A stretch of 34,915 bases of DNA from Nitrospirota bacterium (GTDB taxonomy: Bacteria; Nitrospirota; Thermodesulfovibrionia; Thermodesulfovibrionales; SM23-35), in contig JACAEY010000011.1 in the NCBI GenBank assembly GCA_013388605.1, positions 1-34,915 of the forward strand, written 5' to 3'. Below, piece by piece: positions 14,656 through 21,058 of this stretch (the stretch's first letter is position 1; every line of letters starts with the position of its first letter). A program made the position numbers and the translations under genes. A model generated the notes under the pieces. That model was not told the origin of the DNA. It saw only the letters and a list, made by a program, of their open reading frames with translations, and did not search any database.

Positions 14656-15351
14656 ATTAAAAAGGTTAAAAAAATAACTGAGAAAAAAACTGTTAAGAAA
14701 CCCTCAAAAAAATATTCTAAGAAGACTGTCAAAAAAACTCCTAAGAAGCCCGTAACTAAAAAGAGAAAGGGAAGAGTCCTTAAAAAAGTCAGGACTGTCA
14801 AAAAGACTAAAAAAGTTAAAGCTCCGAAAAAAACTACTAAAGTCAAAAAAATTAGCAAAAAGGTCAGGGCTCCAAAAAAGGTTAGACCCCCAAAAAAGCT
14901 TAAGCCTGCTGAAGAGCAAAAGCCCCAAAAGCCAGCATCAAAAATCTCTATTTTCAAAAAAACTGAAGATGAAAGAGCTGCTATACTAAGATCAGCCCTT
15001 ATTAAAAAAAGAGAGGATATTGTAAAGGAGGCAAAGTCTGAAATATCCAGATATATTAAAGGTGAGACTAAACAACTTGTTGACACTGCCCTTGATGACG
15101 GAGACTGGTCAGTTATTGACTTATCAGAAGATATCAGTTTCCAGAAATTAAGCTCTCATAGGAAAACCCTCCTAAAAATTGATGAGGCATTGAGAAAACT
15201 TGATGAAGGAACATATGGAAAATGCGAGGAATGTGGCGAAGAGATAAATGAAGAAAGGCTGAAGGTTCTTCCTTTTGCAATATATTGCAGAGACTGCCAA
15301 GAGAAAATAGAGATTCTTGAGGAAATGGAGAAGAAAGAGAGAATAGAATAA
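14656..15351 (+). CDS. TraR/DksA C4 zinc-finger family protein with long Lys/Pro-rich N-terminal region; probable ATT start; not in the ORF track
   Basis: Frame open from stop TAA 14641-14643 to TAA 15349-15351. Translation IKKVKKITEKKTVKKPSKKYSKKTVKKTPKKPVTKKRKGR...RKTLLKIDEALRKLDEGTYGKCEECGEEINEERLKVLPFAIYCRDCQEKIE. CxxC-(17)-CxxC zinc finger; GGAGGT at 14645-14650. Confidence 0.85.
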   Translation: MKKVKKITEKKTVKKPSKKYSKKTVKKTPKKPVTKKRKGRVLKKVRTVKKTKKVKAPKKTTKVKKISKKVRAPKKVRPPKKLKPAEEQKPQKPASKISIFKKTEDERAAILRSALIKKREDIVKEAKSEISRYIKGETKQLVDTALDDGDWSVIDLSEDISFQKLSSHRKTLLKIDEALRKLDEGTYGKCEECGEEINEERLKVLPFAIYCRDCQEKIEILEEMEKKERIE

Positions 15352-18723: not shown

Positions 18724-19701
18724 ATGCTGAAAGAAGTAATAATACTGCTTGGTCCTACAGGCGTCGGAAAGACAGGTGTTTCACTTCTTTTGGCAAAAGC
18801 CCTAGATACTGAGATTATCAGTGCAGATTCAATGCAGATTTACAGGTATATGGATATTGGCACTGCTAAACCTACGTCAGAAGAGAAGAAACTGGTTAAA
18901 CATCACATGATTGATATCATTGACCCATGGGAAACTTATAGTACGGGAAGATATATTAAAGAAGTTGTACCCATCATAGATAAACTTCATAGTAAAGGAA
19001 AAATTCCTATAATTGTTGGTGGCACAGGTCTTTATATTAAGGCAATGACAAGAGGCATATTCAGTGGTCCACCTGCTGACTGGTTATTAAGGGAAGAACT
19101 TTTATCTTTAGAAACCGAAGAGAAAGGTATTCTTTACACTTTTTTAAAAGCCCTTGACCCTAAGACAGCAAATAAAATAACTCTAAATGACAAACGCAGG
19201 ATTATACGAGCAATAGAGGTCTATCTGAAGAGTAATTTGAGCATGTCAGAGATGCAAAGAATCATGACAAAGCCCCTCCAGTACGAATTCATAAAAATAG
19301 GTCTATACAAGGAGAGAAAAGAACTATACAGGATAATAGAGCACAGAGTTAATGAGATGATAAGTAAAGGGCTTGTGGAAGAAGTGAAAAATGTGATGAG
19401 CGTGATAAAGAAATATGGCGAGACAGTTAGTATTAAAAATCATGTCTCAAACATTACACATTACCTATCCATGCAGGCTATAGGATATAAGGAAATTGAA
19501 CTTTATCTTGAAGGATATATTACCCTTGAAGAGGCTATAAGGCTAATAAAAAGGGCCACAAAGAGATATGCAAAAAGGCAACTTACATGGTTCAGAAAGG
19601 AAGAAGAGATTCATTGGATAGATATAACAGGCATCTTCGAAAGTAAGGAGATCTTCAAAAAAGTGCAACAAACTCTTGATGGGTTGGGTTGCATTATTTA
19701 G
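18724..19701 (+). CDS. miaA: tRNA dimethylallyltransferase
   Basis: IILLGPTGVGKTGVSLLLAKALDTEIISADSMQIYRYMDIGTAKPT; RYAKRQLTWFRK. Confidence 0.97.
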   Translation: MLKEVIILLGPTGVGKTGVSLLLAKALDTEIISADSMQIYRYMDIGTAKPTSEEKKLVKHHMIDIIDPWETYSTGRYIKEVVPIIDKLHSKGKIPIIVGGTGLYIKAMTRGIFSGPPADWLLREELLSLETEEKGILYTFLKALDPKTANKITLNDKRRIIRAIEVYLKSNLSMSEMQRIMTKPLQYEFIKIGLYKERKELYRIIEHRVNEMISKGLVEEVKNVMSVIKKYGETVSIKNHVSNITHYLSMQAIGYKEIELYLEGYITLEEAIRLIKRATKRYAKRQLTWFRKEEEIHWIDITGIFESKEIFKKVQQTLDGLGCII

Positions 19702-19740
19702 GAAAAATACTTTATGGTAAATAAAAAATGGATAAAAGAA

Positions 19741-19951
19741 ATGGCTAATCCACTTGGAAGATTCAGAATCTTCGAGATAAATATCTTAATCAACTTTTGA
19801 ATGATAAGATACCTGCTATAATGTATCTAACTACTGGTGCAAGACTAAAAGGAGTGATAAAAGGTTTCAACAATTTTATAATCATGCAAAGGAGAATACA
19901 TACTCTCTAATATACAAGCATGCTATAGCAACTATATTAACATTAACCTAA
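19741..19951 (+). pseudogene. hfq: Frameshifted hfq remnant
   Basis: Three frames: MANPLGRF (from 19741), then NLRDKYLNQLLNDKIPAIMYLTTGARLKGVIKGFNNFIIM (from 19767), then AKENTYSLIYKHAIATILTLT* (about 19886-19951). Hfq Sm1 pattern and YKHAI Sm2 signature; canonical miaA-hfq order. Confidence 0.88.
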
Positions 19952-19971
19952 AAAGGACATTGAAATAAAAA

Positions 19972-20379
19972 TTGAGAACCGATAGAATGCCCAGAAACCC
20001 AATTCCTACAGTTGATATTATTATAAAATATAAAGGCGGCATTTTACTGGTAAAGAGAAAGAATCCTCCCGAGGGATGGGCACTCCCAGGCGGATTTGTG
20101 GATTATGGAGAAAGCCTTGAATCTGCTGCTATTCGTGAGGCAAAGGAAGAAACAGGGCTTGATATTGAACTTATTAGGCAATTTCATACATATTCTGACC
20201 CAAAAAGAGATTCAAGACATCACAGCATAACAACGGTTTATATAGCAAAGGCAAAAGGTGATGCCAAAGCAGGAGACGACGCAGGAGAGATAGGAATCTT
20301 TAACAGAGATACACTTCCAGAGCATATAGCCTTTGACCATAGAGAAATCCTGAATGATTATTTTACTGGGAGGTATTAA
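19972..20379 (+). CDS. NUDIX hydrolase
   Basis: [28 protein letters not shown] matches the Nudix box GX5EX7REUXEEXGU. Confidence 0.93.
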
Positions 20380-20383
20380 GTAA

Positions 20384-21058
20384 ATGCTTAAATTAATGCG
20401 TAAACATGCAAAATACTTCTATGTCCTTTTTTTTATTGTCATTCTTTCATTCATATTTTGGGGAATAGGTAATGTGGACAGAACAAGCGAAAAAGATATT
20501 GTTGCAGAAGTTGGTAAATATAAAATAACAACCGATGAATACTGGAGGACTTACGAAAATATCTACCGCTTTTATAGAGAAATATATAAAGATAAGTTCA
20601 ACGAAGATATGGAAAAAAAGATGAAATTGAGAGAAAAAGTTCTCGACTCTATGGTTGATGAGCAGGTACTTTTAATTGCAGCAAAAGAGATAGGAATTAA
20701 AGTAAACAATGAAGAGCTTCACGAGGCAATAACACATGAGCCAGCCTTTATGAGAGATGGAATATTTGACAAAAATATATATATAAACAGATTGAGACTT
20801 AACAGAATTACTGTGGGAGAATATGAGAAATCTAAAATAAATGAACTTACACTTACAAAAATGAAACGTCTAATAGAACTGTCTGTTGACACGTCAGATA
20901 TTACACTTGAAACTCAACAATTATCATCTGATGAAAGTGCAATGAATATGCTAAAAGATACACTCCTTAATCAGAAACGAGAGATGGCTGTGAAGTCATA
21001 TATTGAAGGTTTCAAGAAAAAAATAAAAATTAAGACTGATATACAACTCATTTCCTGA
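20384..21058 (+). CDS. Membrane-anchored SurA-N/PpiD-N-like chaperone domain protein without a recognisable PPIase domain
   Basis: MLKLMRKHAKYFYVLFFIVILSFIFWGIGNVDR is PpiD-like, followed by a helical SurA_N-type region; ends at 224 aa. Confidence 0.7.
   Translation: MLKLMRKHAKYFYVLFFIVILSFIFWGIGNVDRTSEKDIVAEVGKYKITTDEYWRTYENIYRFYREIYKDKFNEDMEKKMKLREKVLDSMVDEQVLLIAAKEIGIKVNNEELHEAITHEPAFMRDGIFDKNIYINRLRLNRITVGEYEKSKINELTLTKMKRLIELSVDTSDITLETQQLSSDESAMNMLKDTLLNQKREMAVKSYIEGFKKKIKIKTDIQLIS

Follow-up and report, generated by a model that had tools for sequence, protein, structure and literature searches.

A probable hfq pseudogene decaying in place in a Thermodesulfovibrionales lineage

Main

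The interval between miaA and a NUDIX hydrolase gene in the genome of an uncultured Thermodesulfovibrionales bacterium (Nitrospirota) contains the remains of an hfq gene. We conclude, with a probability of about 90%, that positions 19741–19985 (+) represent a genuine, moderately recent unitary hfq pseudogene that is decaying in place. The window analysed here is one whole contig of 34,915 nucleotides from a single MAG (1.675 Mb in 156 contigs, 97% complete), which is the sole representative of its genus among the genomes compared. Judged by MiaA, its nearest named relatives are MAGs assigned to Thermodesulfovibrionales and Nitrospirota, with identities of at most 69%.

An hfq relic in the ancestral slot

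The genes around the relic are intact. Upstream lies miaA, encoding tRNA dimethylallyltransferase (18724–19701, +; 325-residue open reading frame; Pfam IPPT, E = 8e-83; at most 69% identity to relatives), and downstream lies the NUDIX hydrolase gene (19987–20379, +; Pfam NUDIX, E = 3e-23; at most 86% identity), followed by the conserved next gene of the shared order, which encodes a SurA-like N-terminal domain (20384–21058, +; Pfam SurA_N_3, E = 5e-43). The miaA–hfq–NUDIX–SurA-like order is shared throughout the family and by several lineages outside it, and the relic occupies the ancestral hfq position within it, with homology that spans the whole gene at the orthologous site. Comparison with the miaA–hfq loci of relatives, proposed in a preliminary description of this DNA, revealed exactly one intact Hfq in each of the 19 same-family genomes searched.

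Two observations concern other genes of the region. In two relatives (L119 and L131), the NUDIX gene adjoining hfq is cut to fragments with open frames of 51 and 63 residues, suggesting that this member of the hfq operon was lost independently there. Elsewhere in the window, ATT is the apparent start codon of a 231-residue gene behind frr (14656–15351, +), which has a Lys-rich N terminus and a DksA/TraR zinc finger (Pfam PF01258, E = 1e-15): GGAGG lies just upstream, and the beginning of the open frame offers no ATG, GTG or TTG nearby. ATT occupies this position in the nearest relative, L231, too, and in L236 ATA and ATT codons take the place of ATG; other relatives appear to begin at ATG. The ATT may possibly be a conserved rare start codon.

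To delimit the relic, an Hfq profile built from the 19 same-family genomes was aligned to the window with frame changes allowed, and 60 shuffled copies served as the control. The alignment spans 19767–19973 and scores 213, compared with at most 38 in the shuffles, in agreement with the earlier proposal that Hfq residues lie directly behind miaA. Three frame breaks fall within 245 bp. The N-terminal piece and the first break occupy 19741–19766 (+), where the distance from the start codon to the conserved Asn-Leu-Gln, fixed at 24 nt in relatives, is 26 nt from the window ATG at 19741, a net change of +2 before 19767. Translation from this ATG yields only 19 codons before a stop. The Sm1-region piece (19767–19886, +) holds 40 codons in one frame and is recognized by Pfam PF17209 (E = 1.2e-9) as well as by the profile alignment. 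A second break at 19887–19888 (+), net −1, is shown by the profile alignment and also by tblastn with the proteins of relatives; it is followed by the Sm2-region piece with YKHAI (19889–19939, +) and by a third break at 19940–19949 (+), net +7, both placed by the profile alignment. Beyond the third break, the C-terminal tail piece (19947–19985, +), identified from the profile alignment and comparison with relatives, encodes 12 further residues and ends in the ancestral stop TAG at 19983–19985, just ahead of the NUDIX ATG at 19987. The relic is thus not a single open Hfq frame: profile positions 2–40 of 64 match in one frame, which falls below the TIGR02383 cut-off. In the former ribosome-binding region (19716–19740, +), comparison of upstream DNA by eye with eight relatives showed that the AGGAG Shine–Dalgarno motif present in seven of the eight is gone from the window, in a spacer that is otherwise still alignable.

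These boundaries revise the preliminary description in several respects. It had placed the remnant at 19741–19951; the start is retained, and the end moves to 19985, because the earlier reading stopped at a premature TAA and, owing to the third break, missed the C-terminal tail. Both frame changes that it reported, near 19765 and at 19884–19890, are present, and the net +7 break had escaped it. It equated each change with a 1-nt deletion, which is correct for the second; the first is a net gain of 2, the same modulo 3.

Residue changes and evolutionary rate

The relic was earlier described as well conserved in its remaining residues, which does not hold by Hfq standards. Nine of 30 family-invariant positions are changed, compared with 0–2 in each of the 19 intact relatives when these were left out one at a time. 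In E. coli numbering, the changed invariant positions include Q8, N28 and D40; R16 and R17, on the rim and almost invariant within the family, have changed as well. The relic residues aligned to Q8, R16/R17, N28 and D40 are R, L/N, T and N, so that conserved RNA-binding and core residues are not kept. The best identity of the relic to an Hfq of a relative is 71%, compared with 83–100% between each intact Hfq and its nearest relative.

Because dS between genera is saturated, we used excess dN and tip length as measures of rate. On one topology, derived from the three neighbouring proteins and kept fixed, the window Hfq tip is 0.44, or 18% of the Hfq tree, compared with 8% for MiaA, 4% for NUDIX and 8% for the SurA-like protein. 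After scaling of the tip lengths, the relic has changed about 2.5–5 times as much as its neighbours predict. Mean dN between relic and relatives is 0.21, against 0.12 among the relatives at similar, saturated dS, and NUDIX dN is 0.08–0.13. If the dN excess is neutral, a rough estimate is about 0.1 substitutions per site since constraint was lost, which would be a minor part of the branch and far more than a sequencing slip. The pN/pS of the relic is still below 1 and its Sm1 and Sm2 cores are recognizable; this ratio and most of the residues still reflect past purifying selection.

RNA chaperones elsewhere in the genome

The preliminary description held that the canonical Hfq locus had been lost, and profile searches of the 97% complete genome agree: PF17209, TIGR02383 and PF01423 match no second Hfq or LSm protein. 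ProQ and CsrA were likewise not found in this genome. CsrA is also missing from all 17 same-family genomes searched, so that among these absences only the Hfq loss is new in the window lineage; elsewhere in the order, some families do have CsrA. The genome encodes one KH_KhpA-B protein. In bacteria that have neither Hfq nor ProQ, KhpA and KhpB have been proposed to act as RNA chaperones (PMC9037510). Among the families searched, no candidate for a general RNA chaperone was found besides this KH protein.

The relic could be real and the role of Hfq nevertheless have passed to an undetected Sm-like protein or a second hfq copy. The assembly may lack about 3% of the genome, and weakly similar Hfq equivalents are known in some bacteria (PMC9037510). 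Given that the three profiles give no further match and that same-family relatives carry one hfq copy each, we regard such a replacement as very unlikely.

Decay or assembly error

The preliminary description left open whether inactivation was recent or the indels arose in assembly. An intact hfq obscured by assembly or base-calling errors would fit a source that is a MAG in 156 contigs, and single-base indels are common in some technologies; two of the three breaks are small. To estimate the background of such breaks, we sampled contigs amounting to 340 kb of the assembly, of which about 90 kb of homologous coding DNA was tested against the proteins of relatives, a sample with little power to reveal breaks where a gene is short or little conserved. 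It contained no other credible frame break, so three breaks in 245 bp stand outside the assembly background. The sole other candidate (L143, near position 2776) was rejected, since by eye the query that matched there resembles the translation of a non-coding stretch, probably rRNA. Moreover, one of the hfq breaks is a net gain of 7, and neither the substitutions at invariant residues nor the loss of the Shine–Dalgarno motif can be an indel artefact. Assembly error is thus very unlikely. Four mutually independent lines of sequence evidence (changes at invariant sites, tip length, Shine–Dalgarno loss and the lack of background breaks) point to decay. Together with the three breaks themselves, they favour genuine decay that is past a very recent stage.

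That the locus encodes a diverged but functional LSm protein, made through recoding by programmed frameshifting or with initiation at a non-canonical start, is hardly credible: the pN/pS below 1 and the recognizable cores would suit it, but it needs three shifts in 80 codons, in a gene whose Shine–Dalgarno motif is gone and whose first frame ends after 19 codons, and the 19 intact relatives all have plain single-frame genes with nothing of the kind.

Discussion

The decay of hfq in place suggests the following course of events. An ancestor would have carried a single-copy hfq in the miaA–hfq–NUDIX–SurA-like order, and the gene would have been inactivated in the window lineage after its split from the sampled genera. 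The inactive copy would then have decayed by small indels and relaxed substitution while the flanking genes remained intact. With the ATG reading limited to 19 codons, functional Hfq is probably no longer made, and any sRNA regulation would be Hfq-independent or reduced.

A broader and more tentative possibility, which we hold at somewhat less than even odds, is that we see this lineage in the act of losing the last of its widely known global sRNA chaperones, with Hfq, ProQ and CsrA all absent. If so, trans-acting sRNA regulation would work without these three proteins, perhaps through the KhpA/B-type KH protein, or would have largely vanished.

The hfq loss itself can be dated to a single branch, in a family where the gene is otherwise kept, and offers a natural before-and-after pair in which to follow the fate of sRNAs and their targets once Hfq goes.

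Other lineages of the order also lack Hfq, which makes this comparison repeatable. Hfq is absent in 15 of 80 relatives, all 15 in other families of the order. At the two hfq-less miaA loci checked (L040 and L041, both of Thermodesulfovibrionales type), unrelated genes come after miaA and no relic of hfq can be seen, which suggests another, older loss or a relocation. In our literature search no paper dealt with Hfq in Thermodesulfovibrionales, and the top results held nothing specific on an hfq pseudogene.

Because Hfq is missing from about half of bacteria (PMC9037510), the loss is in itself unsurprising, a clean example of a known and fairly ordinary event, and its interest lies mainly in a relic that shows the loss in progress. 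With members of the Hfq family (PF17209, TIGR02383) at the Thermodesulfovibrionales miaA–hfq locus, the relic shares its position, its flanking genes and homology from start to stop; unlike the intact genes there, it has no single open frame and no Shine–Dalgarno motif, and core RNA-binding and structural residues are changed. As in known lineage losses (PMC9037510), a regulatory gene has gone in one lineage and its neighbours remain. Unlike those losses, the relic in the window is still readable, and the loss has been caught in progress.
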